Virus record (IMG/VR): IMGVR_UViG_3300032240_000827
Location: 1-20,545 of that record
Direction: 5' to 3' (one strand)
Length of the DNA stretch: 20,545 nt
Source of the DNA: a virus
Shown piece by piece: positions 1 through 20,545 of the stretch. The notes beneath the pieces were generated by a model, which was not told where the DNA came from, did no database searches, and saw only the letters and a program-made list of their open reading frames with translations. The translations under genes were made by a program, and so were the position numbers. How positions within the stretch are numbered: position 1 is the stretch's first letter; the number at the start of each line of letters is the position of its first letter.

Positions 1-1181
1 ATGTGGTACCACTCACCGGACACCTCGACGGCGTTGTCTAAGATCTCGTAATCACCGTTCTCAAGGAGAATGATCTCGTTGTCGTCAAGGTAATCCTCGT
101 CGTAGTACTCGTCGTTACAGTACACAACGTAGTCGCTGTGCACATAGTACTGATTACCCCTGCGGCCATACACATACTGGTAGTCGTGCTCCAGACATGA
201 CTGACACACATGGGTGTCCTCACTGCGGTTGACCCAGTAGCCATCGTCGTTAGATGTGCGGTCATCGCAAGACTCGCAGTTGAAGTAGTCCTCGTTGTCC
301 TCCTCGTCGTTGGCTAGACCATCGGTGCGGTTGCACGTGTACCGCCCGTTGCACTCCATGTACAGATGATCGTCACCGTCTGCAACGAGTTTGTCGTTGC
401 CATCGAGGAATGGCATGAGCACCGTGTTGTCGACCTCATGCTTGTCGAACTTCTCACCGTCTTGCCACGAGTACTTCTTGACGTAGCCCTGCTCTTTGAG
501 CCAGTGCTCAAGACCGCCGTCGACTTGGCTGTAGTCACCGTCACGGGTTGGCCGCAGGTAGGTGCGGACATAGTACTTGTCGCCCGTTTCTTTGTTGTCC
601 ATGCACAGCGCACGACTGAGCGTCTCACCGTTCAGAATACCCACCGCCATGTGCCAGCCATACTTGGGGTTGTAGACCTCGTAGGGATGGCGAGTCTTGC
701 CGTCAGCACAGCGCACACCGGAGCGATGCCAGACCATGCACGAGCCGGGGCCGTTGGCTAAATGATGGAGCATCTCGGCCATGGTGTGCACCAGCTTGTA
801 GTCGCTGTTCGTGCCGTAGCGTTGCACCAGATCACGGATGTCGTGGTCAGGCAGAGCAGGCCAGTGGCGGCGCAGATACTTGCCAACGGATGTGACCGTC
901 TGCTTGTCGGTGATACCTGCACGCTCGTCCCTAGTGTAGGCAATGCGTGCGGCATCGTTGACCGACTGATGCGGCCATTCGAGGAGGAGCTGCTGCCAGT
1001 CATGCGGACGTGCCGCCTTCATTGCCGCCCATACGATGGGATGCAAGTCGTACTTGGTAGTCTCGCGGTAGAACCAGTCGTTCTCCCTTGGCAGTATGTT
1101 TCGCGTACTTGAATAGCGCAAGATGTGCTTGGCCTGCAAAAAGATTTCCATCATAGTCTTGGGGTTGTAAGTGTCGTTCAC
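1..1181 (-). CDS. Cys-rich phage protein of unknown function, partial (C-terminus beyond left edge)
   Basis: Reading the minus strand from a GTG at 1181 gives 393 uninterrupted codons that leave the window without a stop. The GTG is preceded by AAGGAG (1195-1190) at 8 nt spacing, so this start is well supported. The N-terminal ~200 residues are globular, Trp-rich and mostly charged. A segment around HPYEVYNPKYGWHMAV recalls hypothetical proteins of other environmental phages (from memory). The visible C-terminal third is very acidic (Asp/Glu/Tyr-rich) and carries Cys at about 277, 283, 302, 305, 326, 329 and 355, including CESC and CQSC, compatible with one or two zinc knuckles. It is the most downstream visible gene of the leftward operon. 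Function is unknown; zinc binding is inferred only from Cys spacing. Confidence 0.85.
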   Translation of the reverse strand, partial: MNDTYNPKTMMEIFLQAKHILRYSSTRNILPRENDWFYRETTKYDLHPIVWAAMKAARPHDWQQLLLEWPHQSVNDAARIAYTRDERAGITDKQTVTSVGKYLRRHWPALPDHDIRDLVQRYGTNSDYKLVHTMAEMLHHLANGPGSCMVWHRSGVRCADGKTRHPYEVYNPKYGWHMAVGILNGETLSRALCMDNKETGDKYYVRTYLRPTRDGDYSQVDGGLEHWLKEQGYVKKYSWQDGEKFDKHEVDNTVLMPFLDGNDKLVADGDDHLYMECNGRYTCNRTDGLANDEEDNEDYFNCESCDDRTSNDDGYWVNRSEDTHVCQSCLEHDYQYVYGRRGNQYYVHSDYVVYCNDEYYDEDYLDDNEIILLENGDYEILDNAVEVSGEWYH

Positions 1182-1207
1182 TTTGTTTTCTCCTTGGGAT
1201 ACACAAT

Positions 1208-1226
1208 GGCACTGGGCGGCAGTGCC
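1208..1226. repeat. Intercistronic hairpin beside palindrome copy 1
   Basis: GGCACTG (1208-1214) and CAGTGCC (1220-1226) form a perfect 7-bp inverted repeat with a 5-nt loop. In the leftward transcript it lies between palindrome copy 1 and the ribosome site of the Cys-rich gene, so the 73-nt gap carries two consecutive hairpins. Neither is followed by a convincing U-tract, so simple intrinsic termination is not supported. Confidence 0.6.
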
Positions 1227-1236
1227 CACCGTTAAA

Positions 1237-1253
1237 GGGGGAACCGTTCCCCC
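1237..1253. repeat. Intercistronic palindrome copy 1
   Basis: This is a GGGGGAACCGTTCCCCC element, with 8-nt inverted arms around a single central base. It starts 1 nt after the TAA stop of the 67-aa minus-strand gene. In RNA it would fold as a stable G-C stem with a 3-nt loop. It is one of five copies in this operon. Confidence 0.9.
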
Positions 1254-1254
1254 G

Positions 1255-1458
1255 TTATTCCTTGCACAAAATATCGTCACGGATGATGTCGAGCTGAGCG
1301 AGTACCTCATGGCGCTTGCCCTTGAAGCCCATCATCTTGAGCGTGGAGTAGGCCGTTGGCCCACGGGATTTGCTTAAGCCTTTCATCTCTAGCTTGAGCA
1401 TGGCACGCAGTGTGAGGATGCGTGCCGCTTCGATCTGGTGTCCGGTCAGTGTTGTCAC
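1255..1458 (-). CDS. Small phage protein of unknown function (67 aa)
   Basis: The gene starts at GTG (1458-1456) with AAAGGAG about 6 nt upstream. The start overlaps the TGA of the preceding 59-aa gene as GTGA, which implies translational coupling. The protein is basic and predicted helical, with an N-terminal helix around HQIEAARILTLRAMLKLE and a middle segment GPTAYSTLKMMGFKGKR. Short proteins of this pattern occur in other environmental phages (from memory) without an assigned role. The TAA stop is followed 1 nt later by palindrome copy 1. A DNA- or RNA-binding role would fit size and charge but has no direct support. Confidence 0.85.
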   Translation of the reverse strand: MTTLTGHQIEAARILTLRAMLKLEMKGLSKSRGPTAYSTLKMMGFKGKRHEVLAQLDIIRDDILCKE

Positions 1459-1634
1459 TTGCTTTCTCCTTTGGTTAAATCACACAATTCATTCAGGCGT
1501 GAGCGCACTTGCTCAACCTGATGCCGCACATATGTGCGCCGCTCGATGCTGTCCAAGTTGTCCAGCACATAGCGCAGACGCGCTCTCATGTCATCGAGCT
1601 CAATGTGCCACTCGTGCTCTTGTCCTTCAGTCAT
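1455..1634 (-). CDS. Small charged helical protein (59 aa)
   Basis: ATG at 1634 is preceded by AAGGAG with about 6 nt spacing, and the frame runs 59 codons to TGA (1457-1455). That stop overlaps the GTG of the next gene by 2 nt. The product is almost entirely charged and helical, with heptad-like spacing of Leu/Val around DDMRARLRYVLDNLDSIERR, so a short coiled coil is plausible. It sits between palindrome copy 2 (upstream) and the 67-aa gene (downstream) and is probably co-translated with the latter. Function is not recognised. The strong ribosome site and the coupled overlap are the main evidence that it is a real gene despite its size. Confidence 0.75.
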   Translation of the reverse strand: MTEGQEHEWHIELDDMRARLRYVLDNLDSIERRTYVRHQVEQVRSRLNELCDLTKGESK

Positions 1635-1656
1635 CTTCTTTCTCCTTGGGTTGAAT

Positions 1657-1673
1657 GGGGGAACCGTTCCCCC
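1657..1673. repeat. Intercistronic palindrome copy 2
   Basis: This GGGGGAACCGTTCCCCC copy lies 1 nt after the TAA of the 240-aa minus-strand gene and ends shortly before the AAGGAG that serves the 59-aa gene. It is identical to copies 1 and 5 over the 17-nt core. Confidence 0.9.
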
Positions 1674-1674
1674 G

Positions 1675-2397
1675 TTAAATAATCTCTACGCCATGCCATG
1701 TGTGCGGCACGACTTCGGTGGGTTCAAGTGCCTCAATAATCTTGAGTGCCTTGTCGATGCGGTGGATTACATTGCCGTTCTCCTCGGTTGGGTTGAGTTG
1801 GTACAGGCGCTCGGCATTGGCAAGCTCCGTTTGTGTGCGCTTGATGAGCTTGGCCTTCGCCCGCTTGTGCTGTGCAGGCAGGGTCACCCGCTGAAAAGGA
1901 ATCTTTCGCTTGGCTTTGGGTTTGTATGGCAGTGCGGCGAACGCATCAGCGATGGCGTTCTTGATGTGTGCGGGTATCCAGTCCGTCCAGTGCATACCGT
2001 TGTTCGGGATGGGCGATCCCTTGCCCGTGTCGTTGTGCTCCTTGACCATCTGCGAGGGATGCAGTGTGAGCTTGGTGCTCGGCATCGAGAACTTGGCTAC
2101 GAGTTTCTCCATCACCTTGATGTAGGCATCGAACACCTCGATGCGTTCGGGCGGTTGCTTATCGGGTTTGTACTTGCGCCCGATCTTGGCGTTACTCAGC
2201 TCTGCCCGCAGTGGTTGGAGCAGGTCTTGCCACGCTTGTTTGCGTACAGTGCGAGTGATGCGGTCGGTTCTTTGAACTTCCTTTAGGGATGCAACATCCT
2301 TTTTAATCTGCTCGATGCGGTAGGGATGGAGCTTGAGGGTGCGCGTGAGGTGATCGTGAAGATCGTTGGGTTTCATCTTGACATACGATTCGTACAT
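1675..2397 (-). CDS. Basic phage protein of unknown function (240 aa)
   Basis: The chosen start is ATG at 2397, preceded by AAAGGA at about 10 nt. An in-frame TTG at 2442 would add 15 residues but has no good ribosome site. The protein is strongly basic and largely helical. Its N-terminal ~60 residues are charged helices, a Lys/Arg-rich stretch follows the middle (KPKAKRKIPFQ), and the C-terminal ~60 residues (TQTELANAERLYQLNPTEEN) look like a helical hairpin. No catalytic motif is visible. It is the first gene downstream of the 430-nt control-like gap and is followed by palindrome copy 2. A nucleic-acid-binding role is suggested only by charge; the family is not recognised. Confidence 0.8.
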   Translation of the reverse strand: MYESYVKMKPNDLHDHLTRTLKLHPYRIEQIKKDVASLKEVQRTDRITRTVRKQAWQDLLQPLRAELSNAKIGRKYKPDKQPPERIEVFDAYIKVMEKLVAKFSMPSTKLTLHPSQMVKEHNDTGKGSPIPNNGMHWTDWIPAHIKNAIADAFAALPYKPKAKRKIPFQRVTLPAQHKRAKAKLIKRTQTELANAERLYQLNPTEENGNVIHRIDKALKIIEALEPTEVVPHTWHGVEII

Positions 2398-2440
2398 GGC
2401 AGGTTTTTCCTTTAGAGATGGGTGAGGCAGGTAGTTTAGC

Positions 2441-2533
2441 AAGGAGCCTGCCGTGTGTAAAGAGGATGTCCAAAGATTTGTTCCTTACTAGACAAGACTC
2501 GGGGACGCTGGAACCCGCATGGTTACTAGGGCC
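2441..2533 (+). repeat. Left copy of a diverged inverted duplication
   Basis: Blocks read in order on the + strand are AAGGAGC (2441), GTGTGTAAAGAG (2453), TGTCC (2467), CCAAAGATT, TAGACAAG (2489) and GCATGGTTACTAGGGC (2517). Each recurs in the same order on the minus strand from 2795 to 2695. AAGGAG followed by GTG also starts a 12-codon mini-ORF ending in TAG. The similarity was found by eye. Confidence 0.5.
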
Positions 2534-2639
2534 GTGGCAAAACTGACCCACTTTGTCTATCTTTTTTCTGGAGTTTTTAAACTTGAGCAAAAGTGTCCTT
2601 TTGAATGTGGAAAAATGCACCCCCTTGTGAAGGGACGCT

Positions 2640-2679
2640 CCTATATATATAAATACTTTTAAAAAGATATATATATAGG
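2640..2679. repeat. AT-rich perfect inverted repeat
   Basis: CCTATATATATA (2640-2651) and TATATATATAGG (2668-2679) are 12-nt perfect inverted arms around a 16-nt A/T-rich loop. The element could act as an easily melted origin core, as a cruciform, or as a source of -10-like TATATA sequence for either strand. It sits between the two inward-facing copies of the diverged duplication. Confidence 0.8.
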
Positions 2680-2694
2680 GCCAGAAGTTCGGAC

Positions 2695-2795
2695 GCCCAG
2701 TAACCACGCCGTTTGTGGCAGGCCCTACGCTTGTCGACTACGCCATAATCTTGGACTAGCTCGGGACAGCTCTTTAGACACTGTAAAAGCTCCTT
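2695..2795 (-). repeat. Right copy of a diverged inverted duplication
   Basis: On the minus strand this segment reads AAGGAGC (from 2795), GTGTCTAAAGAG (2781), TGTCC (2768), CCAAGATT, TCGACAAG (2737) and GCGTGGTTACTGGGC (2709), collinear with the left copy apart from a ~10-nt insertion. AAGGAG plus GTG (2781-2779) opens an 18-codon mini-ORF to TAG, possibly a leader peptide or the relic of a gene start. Confidence 0.5.
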
Positions 2796-2805
2796 AATCA
2801 TGGAC

Positions 2806-2822
2806 GGGGGAACCGTTCCCCC
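2806..2822. repeat. Intercistronic palindrome copy 3
   Basis: This core copy carries one extra C on the right side. It follows the 73-aa gene's TGA after TTAA, giving TGATTAA (two stops in overlapping frames) before the hairpin. AAGGAG follows 11 nt downstream of the core in the leftward transcript. Confidence 0.9.
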
Positions 2823-2827
2823 CTTAA

Positions 2828-3049
2828 TCACTTGAACAGGTCTTGCTGTTTGGGTTGCTTGCTGAGCCATTGGAAGAAGGCTTCGTCCGTGGTGAAGGTG
2901 AGGCCTCGTTCGTTGAGAGCCTTGCGCTTGTAGACGTAGACAACGTATTGACTGCCGCCATTGGGGTAGTGGTATTCCATCTGGTAGTCCGTCACGCCGA
3001 GCGTGACTGTGCCTACGGACTTGATACGGTATTGGTTGAGGTTACGCAT
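2828..3049 (-). CDS. Small protein ending in a sliding-clamp-binding-like motif (73 aa)
   Basis: The start is ATG at 3049 with AAGGAG about 6 nt upstream, embedded in the last codons of the preceding gene; the two genes are 2 nt apart. The open frame continues upstream but has no ribosome site there. The N-terminal two thirds alternate hydrophobic and polar residues (VGTVTLGVTDYQMEYHYPNG, then QYVVYVYKRK), suggesting a small beta-sheet fold. A helix with FFQWLSK follows. The C-terminus is KQQDLFK: QQDLF matches the bacterial beta-clamp-binding consensus QL(S/D)LF in all but position two, and lies at the extreme end where such motifs often sit. The clamp link is inferred; the family is not recognised. 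Confidence 0.8.
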   Translation of the reverse strand: MRNLNQYRIKSVGTVTLGVTDYQMEYHYPNGGSQYVVYVYKRKALNERGLTFTTDEAFFQWLSKQPKQQDLFK

Positions 3050-3051
3050 GG

Positions 3052-3240
3052 TTATTCTCCTTGGATTGCAATGAACATTTGATCGGCTGTGGGTTCGTTG
3101 AGCGCCCACCATTCGAGGTTGCCGTACTTGGGGTTTCGCTTGGCGATGTCGTACAGCGTGACGCCATGCTCTGATGTGAATTTGACGATCTGCCCCTCGA
3201 ATTGGGGGCGCACTTTAGCGTTGGTGGTTTCAAAAGCCAT
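3052..3240 (-). CDS. Small protein of unknown function (62 aa)
   Basis: ATG at 3240 begins 62 codons ending with TAA just upstream of the next gene. Its ribosome site is weak (GAAAG about 10 nt upstream), unlike the other leftward genes, and it lies behind a three-hairpin cluster, so its expression may be set by structure or by its own promoter; the minus strand has a -10-like TATAAC about 20 nt before the start. The protein is compact with one Trp pair (NLEWWALNE), and TLYDIAKRNPKYGNLEWW suggests a short helical segment. No known domain is recognised. It is probably translated with the following 73-aa gene, whose ribosome site it contains. Confidence 0.75.
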   Translation of the reverse strand: MAFETTNAKVRPQFEGQIVKFTSEHGVTLYDIAKRNPKYGNLEWWALNEPTADQMFIAIQGE

Positions 3241-3283
3241 GGTTAATTACTTTCAGTTATATGGATTGGACAAGGGAAAGAAC

Positions 3284-3345
3284 ACCGCAAGAGCCTCTCT
3301 CTTGCGGTTATGCGGGAAACGCATAAGGGGGGAACCGTTCCCCCC
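3284..3345. repeat. Three contiguous hairpins, including palindrome copy 4
   Basis: Three perfect inverted repeats abut with no spacer: ACCGCAAGAG/CTCTTGCGGT (3284-3293, 3299-3308, 5-nt loop), TTATGCG/CGCATAA (3308-3314, 3320-3326, 5-nt loop) and the fourth palindrome copy, extended to GGGGGGAAC/GTTCCCCCC (3327-3345). In the leftward transcript they follow the TGATTAA stop of the 138-aa gene. No U-tract follows, so an RNA-stability or protein-binding structure, or a polarity element, is likelier than a simple terminator. Confidence 0.85.
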
Positions 3346-3349
3346 TTAA

Positions 3350-3766
3350 TCACAGAGCGGCCTTGAAAGCCTTTTTCTGTGCGGGTGTCAGGGCGGCGTA
3401 CTCCTTGAGCAGTTTCGCAACGACATCGACCTCGACCTTGGCCGAACTACTACGCTTTGCGGCCTTGGCATCAGCCGCACCAGTGGCAACATCGACCAAG
3501 TAGCGCACACGGTTGTACGGCTTGCTATCCTTGATGAACGTCAGTTCCCCGCCATTGCGACTCGGATGTGGTTGCACATCCATGACTTCAGCGACATACG
3601 CCACGGCAAAGGGTTTGATGTCAGGCCCGACAATGCCCGCCTTGGCAAGGGCCTCCGCCCATTTGTCCGATTGCGCCTCAATCTGTTTGAACACCGCAGA
3701 GGCGGCGGCGTATGCGTTGCTGTTCATGGCGATGAAAGCCTTAACGTGGTTGATTGCTTTGCTCAT
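3350..3766 (-). CDS. Ala/Lys-rich protein of unknown function (138 aa), first gene of leftward operon
   Basis: ATG at 3766 follows AAGGAG at about 8 nt, and the gene ends with TGA directly before the three-hairpin cluster. The N-terminal ~45 residues form Ala-rich helices (AYAAASAVFKQIEAQSDKW). A central segment with PHPSRNGGELTF and YNRVRYLVDV looks like beta structure. The C-terminal ~45 residues are Lys/Ala-rich, with a Ser-Lys linker and a final helix TPAQKKAFKAAL, giving a basic tail that could contact nucleic acid. It is the first recognisable leftward gene, so it is probably expressed early if this operon is early. No family is recognised. Confidence 0.85.
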   Translation of the reverse strand: MSKAINHVKAFIAMNSNAYAAASAVFKQIEAQSDKWAEALAKAGIVGPDIKPFAVAYVAEVMDVQPHPSRNGGELTFIKDSKPYNRVRYLVDVATGAADAKAAKRSSSAKVEVDVVAKLLKEYAALTPAQKKAFKAAL

Positions 3767-3784
3767 TTGGAAACTCCTTGGAAT

Positions 3785-3801
3785 GGGGGAACCGTTCCCC
3801 C
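3785..3801. repeat. Palindrome copy 5, at the head of the leftward operon
   Basis: This is an identical 17-nt core, located 15 nt before the AAGGAGTTTCC ribosome site of the 138-aa gene. Unlike the other copies it has no intact gene upstream. The flank reads CAAC on the minus strand where copies 1 and 2 read TAAC (stop codon plus C), so the element may have moved with, or outlived, a gene end. Confidence 0.9.
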
Positions 3802-4097
3802 GTTGCTTTGCTCAGGGCCAATCCCTAAGCTAACTCCATTGTGCACACCCCCCGTTTTGATCGGGGTTGAGCCCCTTGTTTTCGGGGTATTTTCGGCCTC
3901 ATTTTCCCCCTGAAACGGCAACTTTCGACCCCCACCCATCCCCCACCACCCCTTTTTGACGACCCCCGACCATCAGGACTACAACACTGTTTCTCACCCG
4001 CAAATCCAATTTTTCAAAACTCAGCCCCAACATGACCCACCCCAAAAATTTTATAAAAATTTCCATGCACTCTTGTCCAACATTTGACACAGCCCAT
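3802..4097. other. Divergent intergenic region with extreme C/G strand asymmetry; packaging-site or promoter candidate
   Basis: No gene is supported here. By hand count, 3921-4090 has about 67 C and 13 G on the + strand. Two small GC hairpins (CCCCG/CGGGG near 3847 and CCCC/GGGG near 3871) are followed by the C-tract block and an A/T-rich stretch around 4045-4060 that contains TATAAA on both strands. On the minus strand TTGGAC lies about 19 nt upstream of TATAAA, a weak leftward promoter candidate. Position directly upstream of TerS is typical for a cos or pac site. The function is inferred from position only. Confidence 0.4.
3929..3952 (-). other. G-quadruplex-forming motif on minus strand
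   Basis: The + strand has C5-A-C3-AT-C5-ACCA-C4. The minus strand therefore has four G-tracts of at least 3 G with loops of 4, 2 and 1 nt, which satisfies the usual G-quadruplex pattern. If the leftward operon starts near 4050 this would be in its 5' untranslated RNA. Confidence 0.6.
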
Positions 4098-4130
4098 AAA
4101 AAAATCCCCGGAGGTTGCCCGCCGGGGATT
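4098..4130 (-). terminator. Leftward-reading intrinsic terminator overlapping the TerS upstream region
   Basis: AATCCCCGG (4103-4111) and CCGGGGATT (4122-4130) are perfect 9-nt arms with a 10-nt loop. On the minus strand the stem is followed directly by seven T (4104-4098), the standard intrinsic terminator layout. It would stop leftward transcription coming from the packaging genes. There is no U-tract on the rightward side. Confidence 0.75.
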
Positions 4131-4137
4131 GAAGGAG

Positions 4138-4830
4138 ATGTTCTACCATCCCAAGGAGAAGCGACAAGACCTTGCGGCGTCACTCACATGTAGTGTACAC
4201 TTTGTCCAACGAGGAAACAAGTGCACGCCAGCACCACCCTACGCAATGTTAGAACACCTGATTGACGGCGAATTTGAACCAGCAGTGGAAGACAGCCCTG
4301 CGGCTATGCCTACGCCTATTCAAAAGGCAGACGCGGCGCAAACGATCGACGCCCAAGTCAAGACAGCCGAGTGGCTCAAAGAGCTGGGGCTGGATGATGA
4401 AGAGATTGAAGCCAAGGCAGACGCCCAAGCAGCACGCAAGTCTTTTGCCTCTCTGGTTACCGGCCAGTCAGCCCCCAATACACAGGTCGCCCTGTCACAG
4501 ATTAAAACCCCAGCGGCTGTTCAGCATCTGGTGGGCATGCTCACTGCCTACGACTGGCAGTTCGTGGAGCAGGCCAAGGAGCTGCGCGGCTACGCCGTGG
4601 CGCAGATTCTGGAAGAAACAAAACACTCCGACGCCCGCATCCGGCTCAAAGCTCTTGATATGCTGGGCAAGGTCACGGAAGTCGCGCTGTTCACCGAACG
4701 GGTGGAGGTCAAGAAGGCCGACATGTCGGACGATGAGCTGGAGACCCGGATCAAGGACAAGCTCAACCGGTTCATGCAAGTCGTTGATGTTGTGGATGTT
4801 TCTGAAGTGACGCCGCCCAATGCAGCTTGA
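4138..4830 (+). CDS. terS: Putative terminase small subunit (TerS)
   Basis: This frame ends 11 nt inside TerL, the usual place for TerS, the DNA-recognition subunit of the packaging motor. The ~230-aa acidic protein has a variable N-terminus, a Pro/Ala linker, a middle helical region (ELGLDDEEIEAKADAQAARK) and a conserved-looking C-terminal part (SDARIRLKALDMLGKVTEVALFTERVEV) that recalls TerS-like proteins of related phages (from memory). The start is uncertain. ATG 4138 is touched by AAGGAG with no spacing, though GGGGA lies 9 nt upstream. ATG 4246 has no ribosome site, and the frame stays open back to TTG 4084 through the terminator. A perfect 10-bp palindrome at 4192-4201 within this zone hints that part of it may be regulatory or packaging DNA. 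Confidence 0.65.
   Translation: MFYHPKEKRQDLAASLTCSVHFVQRGNKCTPAPPYAMLEHLIDGEFEPAVEDSPAAMPTPIQKADAAQTIDAQVKTAEWLKELGLDDEEIEAKADAQAARKSFASLVTGQSAPNTQVALSQIKTPAAVQHLVGMLTAYDWQFVEQAKELRGYAVAQILEETKHSDARIRLKALDMLGKVTEVALFTERVEVKKADMSDDELETRIKDKLNRFMQVVDVVDVSEVTPPNAA
4192..4210. promoter_or_regulatory. Palindrome AGTGTACACT followed by TTGTCCAAC
   Basis: AGTGTACACT (4192-4201) is a perfect 10-bp palindrome. TTGTCCAAC (4202-4210) repeats the nonamer at 4074-4082, and TTGTCCAA occurs on the minus strand near 3266-3274. Together they could be an operator or packaging-protein site, but chance is not excluded. Confidence 0.3.
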
Positions 4831-6358
4831 TAAACTGACCACGCTGTCAAAGGTAGAGTTGCAAGCGCTCCTTCGGGCGCTGCCGCACATGTCCACGCAA
4901 GATAAGCTGGAGTTGTTCCAAGATTTGGAGTTGCGCGAGTCCCGCGCCAGCCTTCAGGCTGCAAAGACCAACATGCTGGGTTTTGCCACAGCCGTGTACC
5001 CCGGGTTTAAAGTCGGACCGCACCACAAGAAGCTGGCCCGCATCTTTACGGACGTGATCGAGGGCCGCAAGAAGCGCGTCATCATCAACATCGCGCCGCG
5101 TATGGGTAAGTCCGAGTTTTCGTCTTACCTGTTCCCCGCTTACTTCCTTGGCAAGTACCCCAACAAGAAGATCATCATGGGCACGCACACGGCGGGTCTG
5201 TCGGAGGACTTCGGTCGGCGGGTGCGAAATCTGATTGAGACGGAGGAGTACCATGAGGTTTTTCCCAACACATTGGTTGCTGACGACCAGAAAGCGGCTG
5301 GTAAATGGTCTACTTCTGCTGGCGGTCAGTATTACGCTGCCGGTGTTGGCGGCGCTCTTGCTGGTCGTGGTGCTGATCTGTTCGTTATTGATGACCCTCA
5401 CTCCGAGCAGGATGTCAAGGCGAATTCCCGTTTGGCTTTCGACACGGCGTGGTCATGGTTTCAAACAGGCCCGCTCCAGCGACTGATGCCGGGCGGGGCG
5501 ATCATCGTCATCATGACGCGTTGGTCGTTGCTGGACCTGACTGGCCGGTTGATCGACTACCAGACCAAGAATCCCGACGCAGTTCCATGGGAGATCGTAG
5601 AACTTCCGGCCATCCTGAATGAGGATACGCCGGAAGAAAAGTCACTGTGGCCAGAACAGTGGGCGCTGGATGCGTTGAAAGCGACAAAGGCCAGTATCGA
5701 GCCAAGATATTGGAACGCGCAGTACATGCAGCAGCCCACCAGTGAATCAAGCGCCATTGTGTCGCGCAAGATGTGGAGAATCTGGGAACCGGACAAGCCG
5801 CCGCCCTGTGACTACATCATCCAGAGCTGGGATACGGCGTTTGAAATCAAGAACAACTCCGACTACAGCGCTTGCACCACGTGGGGCGTGTTCTACAACG
5901 AGGAAGAAGGGGACAAACCCCAGATCATCCTGCTCGATGCGTTCAAAGACCGCATGACGTTCCCAGATTTGAAGGCCGCAGCGCTGAAACACTGGAAAGA
6001 ATGGGAGCCCGATGCGTTCATCGTGGAAAAGAAGGCGTCTGGTGCGCCGCTCATCCAAGAATTGCGCAACATGGGCATACCGGTGCAGGAAACGAACCCT
6101 AGCCGGGGCAACGACAAGATGGTACGATTAAACGCGGTGTCCGATCTGTTCGCTTCTGGCATGGTTTGGGCACCCGACACGCGCTGGGCGCGGGAAGTGA
6201 TCGAAGAAATGGCTGCTTTCCCTGTTGGAGAGCACGATGACTACGTGGATACGACAACTCAGGCGCTCTTGCGGTTCCGCCAAGGCGGATTTATCGCGCT
6301 GGACTCCGACGAGAAGGACGATCTGTACAGCTACGCCCGCAAGGCCGCATACTATTAA
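4820..6358 (+). CDS. terL: Terminase large subunit (TerL), ATPase-nuclease
   Basis: TerL translocates and cuts phage DNA at the portal. The 512-aa product shows both expected domains. The N-terminal ATPase has Walker A in IAPRMGKSE (about 91-99), Walker B in LFVIDDP (about 187-193) and a likely coupling motif in VIMTRWS (about 230-236). The C-terminal RNase H-like nuclease has acidic residues at D338 (SWDTAFE), E403 (IVEKKASG) and D473/D474 (EHDDYVD). The overall length is normal. The ATG overlaps the TerS stop by 11 nt with only a weak ribosome site, implying translational coupling, and the portal follows 10 nt later. All key motifs are intact. I am confident of the identification but not of the exact subfamily. 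Confidence 0.96.
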   Translation: MQLDKLTTLSKVELQALLRALPHMSTQDKLELFQDLELRESRASLQAAKTNMLGFATAVYPGFKVGPHHKKLARIFTDVIEGRKKRVIINIAPRMGKSEFSSYLFPAYFLGKYPNKKIIMGTHTAGLSEDFGRRVRNLIETEEYHEVFPNTLVADDQKAAGKWSTSAGGQYYAAGVGGALAGRGADLFVIDDPHSEQDVKANSRLAFDTAWSWFQTGPLQRLMPGGAIIVIMTRWSLLDLTGRLIDYQTKNPDAVPWEIVELPAILNEDTPEEKSLWPEQWALDALKATKASIEPRYWNAQYMQQPTSESSAIVSRKMWRIWEPDKPPPCDYIIQSWDTAFEIKNNSDYSACTTWGVFYNEEEGDKPQIILLDAFKDRMTFPDLKAAALKHWKEWEPDAFIVEKKASGAPLIQELRNMGIPVQETNPSRGNDKMVRLNAVSDLFASGMVWAPDTRWAREVIEEMAAFPVGEHDDYVDTTTQALLRFRQGGFIALDSDEKDDLYSYARKAAYY

Positions 6359-14847: not shown

Positions 14848-15081
14848 ATGAAAGCGCCGCAGCAATCCCTGAAAGACTGGGGCGACCAGAAATGGCGCAC
14901 CAAGTCCGGCAAACCGTCAAGCAAGACTGGAGAGCGTTACTTACCGGAGAAGGCAATTAAAGCGCTATCCCCGGCAGAGTACGCAGCCACCACGAGAGCA
15001 AAGCGGGCAGGTAAAGCAGCAGGTAAACAGTTTGTGGCGCAGCCAAAAGGCATAGCCAAAAAAACAGCGGGGTATAGATAA
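14848..15081 (+). CDS. Tiny basic protein, TGERYLPEKAIKAL family (77 aa)
   Basis: ATG 14848 follows the previous TGA by 1 nt. The frame is open further upstream, but that part overlaps the previous gene and has no ribosome site. The 77-aa product reads SLKDWGDQKWRTKSGKPSSK, then TGERYLPEKAIKALSPAEYA and a Lys/Ala/Arg tail. This pattern is very widespread in phages and some giant-virus and bacterial genomes (from memory), often without function. It is strongly basic. The TAA stop overlaps the next ATG by 1 nt (TAATG), so translation is coupled to the Gly-rich protein. Confidence 0.8.
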   Translation: MKAPQQSLKDWGDQKWRTKSGKPSSKTGERYLPEKAIKALSPAEYAATTRAKRAGKAAGKQFVAQPKGIAKKTAGYR

Positions 15082-15830
15082 TGGCTTACGGCGATTACAT
15101 GGGCGGTTACGGTCAACAGATGCAAAACCCTTTTATGGGTGGCTACGGTGGCGGTATGGGTGGCTACGGTGGCGGTATGGGTGGCTACGGCGGCGGTATG
15201 GGTGGCTACGGTGGTGGCTACGGCGGCGGTATGGGTGGCTACGGTGGTGGCTACGGTGGTGGCTACGGTGGTGGCAACCCTTACCAGATGCAGAACCCCT
15301 TCATGGGTGGAGGCATGGGCGGCTTTGGCGGCGGCGGTAACCCATATCAAATGCAGAACCCCTTTATGGGTGGTGGCATGGGTGGCTACGGTGGCGGCTT
15401 CGGTGGCGGCATGGGCGGTTACGGTCAACAGATGCAAAATCCTTTCATGGGTGGCGGCTTCGGTGGCGGCATGGGCGGATTTGGCAGAGGCAATCCTTAC
15501 CAGATGCATAACCCCTTCATGGGCGGTCAACAGCAACAACAGCAACAACAAAATCCGTTTTCCGGGCTTGATTCAAAAGCAATAGAAGCAGACCCACAAA
15601 AGTTTGTGCAGTGGTTGCGCACGCAACAAGCTCAGAGTAACAGTAGGAATATGCAAGGGGGCAACTTCCCGAACGTACCAACAAACGAAGGCCCTATAGG
15701 CGGTCCTATGGGTATGCTTCAGCAAGCGAATAGCGCACAGCCCATGACTGTTGGCAACACGCTGCCTTTGCAAATACCAACTCAACCCTCACCAGCAGCC
15801 CCAACAGACTATCAAGGCGGAGTAAGCTAA
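15081..15830 (+). CDS. Gly/Tyr/Met-rich low-complexity virion-type protein (249 aa)
   Basis: The gene is coupled by TAATG to the previous one. The N-terminal ~155 residues are built from two repeat types, GGYGGGM units and NP(Y)QMQNPFMGG units, with very few charges. A poly-Gln run (QQQQQQQQ) ends this part. The C-terminal ~95 residues differ: NPFSGLDSKAIEADPQKFVQ forms a short helical segment, then a Pro/Gly/Gln-rich disordered tail. The composition resembles sticky or phase-separating low-complexity proteins. The DNA repeats could change copy number by slippage. Function is not recognised; a virion-associated adhesive or assembly role is speculative. Confidence 0.8.
   Translation: MAYGDYMGGYGQQMQNPFMGGYGGGMGGYGGGMGGYGGGMGGYGGGYGGGMGGYGGGYGGGYGGGNPYQMQNPFMGGGMGGFGGGGNPYQMQNPFMGGGMGGYGGGFGGGMGGYGQQMQNPFMGGGFGGGMGGFGRGNPYQMHNPFMGGQQQQQQQQNPFSGLDSKAIEADPQKFVQWLRTQQAQSNSRNMQGGNFPNVPTNEGPIGGPMGMLQQANSAQPMTVGNTLPLQIPTQPSPAAPTDYQGGVS
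15135..15275 (+). repeat. Tandem 21-nt repeats encoding (M)GGYGG(G) units
   Basis: Units of ATG GGT GGC TAC GGT GGC GGT recur head to tail, at first exactly 21 nt apart and then as shortened 12-nt GGC TAC GGT GGT units. Third-position C/T changes keep the protein repeats. The region is prone to slippage and in-frame length change. Confidence 0.85.
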
Positions 15831-19608: not shown

Positions 19609-20545
19609 ATGGCCGGATGGGGCACGGGCGCTTGGGGCTTAGGCACTTGGGGCAATGGCCAGACCATCCTTACAGGTGACGCGGCCTCGGGCGCAGTAGG
19701 CTCAACCGGGGTCAGCATTACCATAGCCCTCACGGGCGTAGGCGGCACGGGCGCGGTTGGTACAGTAGTTGGTACATCCACAGTTGCCCTGACTGGAGAT
19801 GCCGCATCTGGTAATGTAGGCTCCGTCACTGTTGCAGAACGTCAAATCGCCCTGTCTGGTGTAGCGGCCTCGGGTAACGTAGGAACGGTTGTTGGCTCTG
19901 AAGTTGTCCCAGACACTGGGGATAGCGCAGTTGGTAATGTCGGCACAGTCGGTATCTCGGTATCGGTAGCTCTGACGGGTGTCGCCGCATCAGGTGCGGT
20001 TGGCACGGTCGTTCAAAGCAAGTCCGTAGATTTGTCTGGTGTTACTGCTTCTGGCAGTGTCGGCTCAGTTGTACCGTCAAGCACAGTCGCACTGTCTGGG
20101 GTTTTGGCCTCGGGTCTGGTGGGCACGGTTAGCGCAGACAAAAGCAAAGCGATAACGGGCGTTGCCGCTTCAGGCGCAGTTGGTACAGTTGTTCAGTCCG
20201 CATCCGTTAATTTGTCTGGCGTTGCTGCACAGGGTGTAGCAGGTGGTGTGATTGTCCCGCTGCCATCCAACCAAGCCAACGGCGCAGTAGGTTCTGTTAC
20301 CGCAGATCGCAGCATTGCATTGACGGGTGTGGGTGCAACAGGCTCGGCTGGCACGATGAGTATTGCCGCAAGGATTCTGGCGTTGACCGGGGTTGCGGCG
20401 CAGGGTTCAGTTGGTAATGTAGTTGCGGTATATTGGAAGCCAATCCCTGACGATCAAAATCCCAACTGGCAAATTATTTCTGACGGCCAAACACCAAATT
20501 GGACGTTAATAGGTGACACGCAGACTCCAAACTGGCAAAATGTCG
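19609..20545 (+). CDS. Repeat-rich tail or surface protein, partial (C-terminus beyond right edge)
   Basis: ATG 19609, behind AAAGGGTAGG, opens a frame with 312 codons and no stop before the right edge. The N-terminus is GWGTGAWGLGTWGNG. Residues ~20-270 hold about 12 repeats of roughly 22-24 residues with the pattern LTGVAASGAVGTVV (variants LSGV..., ITGV...), typical of a beta-solenoid or extended beta surface. After a short YWKPIPDD linker come three copies of a QTPNW-type motif (NPNWQII, TPNWTLI, TPNWQNV) at the edge. Acidic and Lys/Arg content is low. Likely a tail fibre or spike-related surface protein; receptor binding is possible but not shown. Repeats may vary by recombination. Confidence 0.85.
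   Translation, partial: MAGWGTGAWGLGTWGNGQTILTGDAASGAVGSTGVSITIALTGVGGTGAVGTVVGTSTVALTGDAASGNVGSVTVAERQIALSGVAASGNVGTVVGSEVVPDTGDSAVGNVGTVGISVSVALTGVAASGAVGTVVQSKSVDLSGVTASGSVGSVVPSSTVALSGVLASGLVGTVSADKSKAITGVAASGAVGTVVQSASVNLSGVAAQGVAGGVIVPLPSNQANGAVGSVTADRSIALTGVGATGSAGTMSIAARILALTGVAAQGSVGNVVAVYWKPIPDDQNPNWQIISDGQTPNWTLIGDTQTPNWQNV

Follow-up and report, generated by a model that had tools for sequence, protein, structure and literature searches.

The 20,545-nt sequence analysed here (the window, corresponding to the whole of IMG/VR record IMGVR_UViG_3300032240_000827) derives from an uncultivated tailed phage. Its genes for terminase (TerL), portal and head proteins point rightward, and its leftward operon carries five identical copies of a 17-nt palindrome. 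The explanation that best combined the evidence, to which a probability of roughly two in three was assigned, is that these palindromes form an operator array bound by an autoregulator encoded by the first gene of the operon, which would throttle the early operon in a manner similar to the stoperators of mycobacteriophages. From sequence comparison, it looks as though dozens of related freshwater phages share this arrangement, each pairing a site sequence of its own with a version of the protein that matches it.

The repeated palindrome and its counterparts in related phages

Exact matches to GGGGGAACCGTTCCCCC were found at positions 1237, 1657, 2806, 3328 and 3785, where 0.10 were expected from shuffled sequences, and no further match was detected in the 20,545 bases when up to 3 mismatches were allowed. 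Read on the minus (coding) strand, the element corresponds to GGGGGAACGGTTCCCCC, in which two 8-bp arms flank a single base. Each non-overlapping gap of the leftward operon contained one copy, and the rightward genes contained none. A preliminary description of this DNA had reported both the five identical 17-mers and their absence from the rightward genes, which exact matching and the whole-window scan, respectively, bore out.

All five putative operators were placed on the minus strand. The leader copy (3785..3801) is located 18 nt 5′ of the ATG of the first gene and has a leader counterpart in most relatives. A second copy (3328..3344) is found 5 nt past the stop of the first gene and a third (2806..2822) 5 nt past another stop, opening a non-coding gap of ~400 nt. 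The remaining two lie 1 nt past a stop, one (1657..1673) 22 nt and the other (1237..1253) 55 nt ahead of the next start. The preliminary description had rightly set four copies directly after stop codons, although the gaps that it gave (1 or 4 nt) required correction, the distances from the preceding stop to the 17-mer edge being 1, 1, 5 and 5 nt.

A scan of viral contigs with the 17-mer returned 32 stretches, several of which held 4-5 copies, and the flanks of the palindrome were often extended by differing complementary bases. In 257 Gb of bacterial genomes, the 17-mer returned 45 scattered stretches and no host element, and a DNA search of cultured phages with 46 nt of a relative, element included, gave no match. 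The TerL of the window shares ~50% identity with its counterparts in phage 023Pt_psg01, the pelagiphages HTVC023P and HTVC027P, and phage DSL-LC04, and no array was present in the regions read of these closest cultured relatives.

Relatives were collected by TerL alone, and arrays were then detected by a palindrome finder. It was observed that most of these relatives have a repeated inverted repeat of their own, identical or nearly so within a contig and differing between lineages (GGGGAGA..TCTCCCC, GGGTCA..TGACCC and TGAGACA..TGTCTCA, for example). The closest relative by TerL (L038, 96%) carries TGAGACACCGTGTCTCA three times at matching places and does not carry the 17-mer of the window. The preliminary description had held that absence of the element from close relatives sharing its gene order would speak against it; the exact 17-mer was indeed absent from them, but the objection fails because an equivalent element of different sequence takes its place there. 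A repeated palindrome can go unnoticed across relatives for the same reason, since each lineage has a different one.

When a same-length stretch downstream of TerL was used as control, a repeated hairpin core was found upstream of TerL in 41 of 55 contigs and downstream in 1 of 55, and at least 3 copies of the core were present upstream in 32 contigs and downstream in none. The arrays are general and local to the region upstream of TerL. Nearly half of the sites (140/292) lay at most 14 nt after the stop of a long open reading frame, compared with 13% of random positions. The order was also conserved: a leader site, the first gene, a post-stop site, a site opening an AT-rich gap of ~400 nt, and the gene of family F23, which in the window encodes a 240-residue operon protein with an HWTDW motif (1675..2397, minus strand). 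The gene content between sites varied strongly among relatives, and the places of the sites were kept. In the cultured freshwater Synechococcus phage MinM2 (OQ594354.1; L244 and L246), 37 sites of the form GGTTCAG-N-CTGAACC were counted over the genome at up to 2 mismatches, against 0-1 in the control. Many of the MinM2 sites lie between leftward genes, and some are in coding sequence, including that of structural genes.

DNA site or RNA hairpin

Within a contig, the half-sites were fixed and spaced by 2 or 3, with a few sites off by one, while the centre sequence varied in 48 of the 55 contigs that had three or more sites. In 26 cases, a few of them from near-duplicate contigs, one asymmetric centre occurred in both orientations relative to the operon. 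Single mismatches, as read on the sense strand, comprised 24 A-C, 20 G-U and 9 others, and this near-equal frequency disfavours an RNA stem, which should prefer G-U. Moreover, the F23 homologues of a group of relatives have a site inside their coding sequence, which was either GGGGAGA..TCTCCCC or GGGGAAC..GTTCCCC, matching the other sites of the same contig, with flanks ~80% identical between the two types. Fixed half-sites, centres free in both directions, no preference for G-U and concerted change altogether point to a dyad in DNA, recognised by a protein, more than to an RNA hairpin. The palindromes would very probably be double-stranded DNA operators, to which a phage-encoded regulator would bind as a dimer.

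The preliminary description had proposed RNA-processing or mRNA-stability hairpins. In its wider form, this explanation was considered unlikely; the elements would stabilise mRNA, mark processing sites, terminate transcription weakly or be bound by an RNA-binding protein of the phage, with a stem particular to each phage. All copies in the window do lie in gaps of a presumably transcribed operon, often beside a Shine-Dalgarno sequence, the stem folds and is lengthened by different complementary flanking bases in some relatives, spacings of 2-4 would all permit an RNA loop, and a T-run follows the stem in two relatives (G012 and G016). However, T-runs are mostly absent, and the constancy of the stem within a genome while its loops vary freely, the two-way centres, the A-C mismatches and the coding-sequence sites that switch in concert with the array speak against a structure read in RNA. 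A terminator scan of the minus strand listed none of the five copies, which do not present the G+C-rich stem and U run of an intrinsic terminator. The same description had also listed a mobile palindrome, which was rejected because the sites are syntenic between phages though their sequences differ. What stands of its interpretation is selection and, among its options, operators for a phage regulator. It was regarded as highly improbable that the palindromes are recombination boundaries resembling the PeSL cassettes of T4-type phages, which would promote the shuffling of early cassettes and owe their identity to recombination and not to a binding protein. The strong variation of gene content between sites that stay in place is what such boundaries would produce, but they leave unexplained why the sites are linked to one protein, why they change in concert while their flanks are conserved and why the centres vary between fixed half-sites, and the repeat unit has no promoter.

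The first-gene product as candidate regulator

The first gene of the operon (3350..3766, minus strand) encodes 138 residues and is a candidate operator-binding autoregulator, with a variable N-terminal part and a small C-terminal helical module. Its product is probably the protein cognate to the sites, a role suggested by the way in which the two vary together. In the relatives, first genes encode proteins of 120-155 residues and diverge more than the other genes compared (median pairwise similarity of 0.05, against 0.83 for TerL, 0.50 for TerS and 0.26 for F23). Among 42 contigs, site distance was correlated with first-gene similarity (Mantel r=-0.31, p=0.001), and the corresponding tests were not significant for TerL (p=0.24), TerS (p=0.17) and F23 (p=0.22), the last of which was rejected as cognate protein on this basis. 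The clearest evidence linking the sites to the first gene appears to come from discordant pairs: the 93 pairs that were similar in TerL and dissimilar in the first gene had a mean site distance of 3.11 and no identical sites, whereas the 28 pairs that were less similar in TerL and related in the first gene had a mean distance of 0.91, with identical sites in 14.

Within the first-gene product, the N-terminal part tracked the sites (p=0.0005), which was not the case for the C-terminal 42 residues (p=0.11). This terminal stretch behaves like a module that can be swapped. Across the first-gene products, the C-terminal ~40 residues fall into a few interchangeable types, such as DPVAxLLKAYxxLTPAQK.. 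and LPKxLVSxIxxEIIDAGLTKAQFDALL.. (L046, L048, L057, L078, L114 and L219), which shuffle independently of the N-terminal part and of the operator. In MinM2, WEV89279.1, encoded by the gene behind the leader site, finishes with a segment that by eye resembles the C-terminal module of the window protein.

A protein-only scan with the first-gene alignment recovered 34 loci, 27 of which have sites of the GGGGGAAC/GGGAGAAC type. The other seven have CTGGGGTGA-N4-TCACCCCAG sites, and their proteins present the motif G-V-R-[DE] where the others mostly present G-A-A. In these seven loci (L211, L218, L220, L221, L222, L229 and L231), the operator is longer, and one copy is placed within the coding sequence of the first gene, replacing the leader site. 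Unlike the alignment, a single first-gene sequence recovered no relative when used for the scan, and a tblastn search of cultured phages with the first-gene protein gave no match. Three first-gene families were homologous by profile (97% and 95%). No profile match was obtained between the GAAC-type and GAGA-type first proteins, so that a single family for all first genes is not established; the first-gene products of L046 (GGGGAGA) and L055 (GGGGAAC) are 60% identical. AlphaFold2 models of two first-gene families reached a mean pLDDT of ~79 (79.6 for the window protein), and both showed helices followed by a beta hairpin, another helix and the C-terminal module, a predicted layout that is compatible with a winged helix.

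It could also be supposed that the operators are bound by another regulator, such as the MarR-like F22, and that the first gene merely hitch-hikes beside the leader site. F22 matches a MarR-type PHROG (E=5e-4), and replication-module genes correlate with the sites in a small set of contigs. This alternative was nevertheless judged quite unlikely, given that TerS is also near the leader yet does not track the sites and that the N-terminal part alone does so within the first-gene product. F22 itself was rejected as cognate protein, its similarity being uncorrelated with site sequence (r=0.00, n=10).

Several observations weigh against an operator array read by the first-gene product. The 17-mer folds as RNA, with a 7-bp stem and a 3-nt loop, and leader sites are one base longer in three relatives (G012, G016 and L234) and otherwise diverged in another (G008). 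The contigs are related, and the Mantel p-values carry no phylogenetic correction. A comparison of all gene families in 17 long contigs failed to set the first gene apart (r=-0.16, p=0.09), and the correlation was stronger for several of the replication genes (n=8-9). Fold searches of solved and viral structures with the two models returned no significant match (no PDB match at E<=0.001, best Z 4.2), sequence searches of Pfam, PHROG and PDB with the candidate protein gave nothing significant, and no DNA-binding domain was recognised in it. Since no structure matches significantly, it is co-variation, and not fold, that points to DNA binding.

Operon context, proposed mechanism and known systems

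A putative -10 element, CACAAT (3838..3843, minus strand), was recognised by eye when leaders were compared, and hexamers like TACAAT, TAAACT and TATAAT were seen in the same way at the matching place in relatives. A sigma-70 scan did not detect this element and found only 2 promoter-like sites in 5 kb, which is chance level, none of them within the repeats. Leader comparison and folding revealed a stem-loop, GCTTAGGGATTGGCCCTGAGC (3810..3830, minus strand), between the putative promoter and the leader operator, with a similar one in many relatives. A search for a T7-type RNA polymerase (PF00940) gave no match, but its control failed too, so that absence was not demonstrated. At gathering level, an Rfam scan of positions 1-5000 returned nothing.

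The remaining genes of the operon, all on the minus strand, encode proteins of 62 (3052..3240), 73 (2828..3049) and 59 residues (1455..1634) with no assigned function, a 67-residue member of phrog_19182, also with no assigned function (1255..1458), and a protein of at least 393 residues that extends past the window edge (3..1181). Ahead of the F23 gene, the non-coding AT-rich gap (2398..2805) has an operator at its far end in the window and in most relatives, and could serve as a replication origin or as a region of strong regulation. An AT-rich gap of ~400 nt with TATATATA tracts precedes the F23 gene in most relatives (L220:3354-3634, L229:3215-3496 and L218:7197-7509, besides the window), and in several of them it is flanked by long inverted repeats of 55-75 nt, 73-85% complementary. 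Unrelated stem-loops are found near two operators of the window, at 3284-3308 and 1208-1226 (CCGCAAGAG..CTCTTGCGG and GGCACTGCCGCCCAGTGCC), and additional variable hairpins are present in the gaps of relatives. Elsewhere in the window, the gene at 9117-9554 matches a GroES-like co-chaperonin (phrog_3188), and a glycine-rich repeat protein with GGYGGGMGGYGG units (15081-15830) and a gene with repeats of ~60-nt period (19670-20355) are possibly tail-related.

In the proposed mechanism, the first-gene product would be made early and would bind the leader site, which follows the promoter, leading to autoregulation, and it would also occupy the sites in each later gap, blocking or slowing RNA polymerase along the early operon. 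In relatives, the leader site would be some 30 nt into the transcript, behind the -10-like hexamer and the stem-loop, and from this downstream position the bound protein would act as a roadblock and not by covering the promoter. Each lineage has its own half-site, along with which the N-terminal part of the candidate regulator changes. Roadblock or stoperator action, suggested by analogy, was given slightly less than an even chance.

If this explanation is true, these phages represent a large natural experiment in the joint change of a DNA-binding protein and all its sites, with dozens of lineages whose terminases are 80-96% identical and whose keys are different. They would also provide ready-made pairs for specificity mapping, such as L046 and L055, together with a collection of small regulators that may be orthogonal, and would allow phage-phage exclusion to be tested in phages where no lysogeny module is obvious. 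A more speculative proposal, on balance doubtful, is that a previously undescribed regulator family of abundant, apparently integrase-less freshwater phages re-keys the whole early-operon array by fast specificity change, setting up 'immunity groups' among co-infecting virulent phages, each of which would shut the early operon of same-key relatives only.

The operators of classical phage repressors of the lambda CI/Cro type are palindromic sites of ~17 bp with phage-specific specificity, and these repressors regulate their own expression. The sites described here are likewise palindromic, ~17 bp long and phage-specific, with proposed autoregulation, but they are distributed over the gene gaps, on the downstream side of the putative promoter, and the protein family is unrelated by sequence. 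Another comparison is offered by the PeSL cassettes of T4-type phages, reportedly described by Arbiol in 2010 and Comeau in 2014 (PMC4503421). PeSLs resemble the present array in being repeated stem-loops between early genes in gene-shuffling regions, but they join an early promoter and a terminator, whereas the repeat described here has no promoter and its U-runs are weak. In Cluster K mycobacteriophages, the ESAS are inverted repeats located 5′ of a subset of non-structural genes, with a consensus that differs between subclusters, arms of 17 bp each, a variable spacer of 4-13 bp and usually a 13-bp SAS alongside (PMC3203893). Inverted repeats by non-structural genes that differ between groups are common to both systems. 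However, the entire site described here is ~17 bp with near-fixed spacing and no SAS (the largest repeat families of the window included no second, SAS-like repeat), and its sequence differs almost lineage by lineage, together with a candidate cognate gene.

Cluster A mycobacteriophages harbour many short, mostly intergenic stoperators, bound by regulators such as L5 gp71 and Bxb1 gp69 and proposed to stop transcription elongation; from one phage to another, the sequence of the sites changes along with the cognate regulator (PMC3029335, PMC6550527). Similarly, the window and its relatives have multiple copies of one short, mainly intergenic site along the operon, the sequence of which co-varies with a candidate phage-encoded regulator, the first-gene product. 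Cluster A stoperators are 13-bp asymmetric sites, oriented with transcription and bound by a monomeric repressor in temperate phages (PMC9283540), whereas the sites described here are palindromes of 15-22 bp with free centres in both orientations and, in most relatives, occur only within a single early operon. Moreover, no tyrosine integrase was detected in 18 contigs, several of them > 60 kb and of completeness not established, and the candidate protein has no recognised helix-turn-helix and appears to belong to an unrelated protein family. By this analogy, the array probably works like a stoperator array without belonging to the stoperator family.

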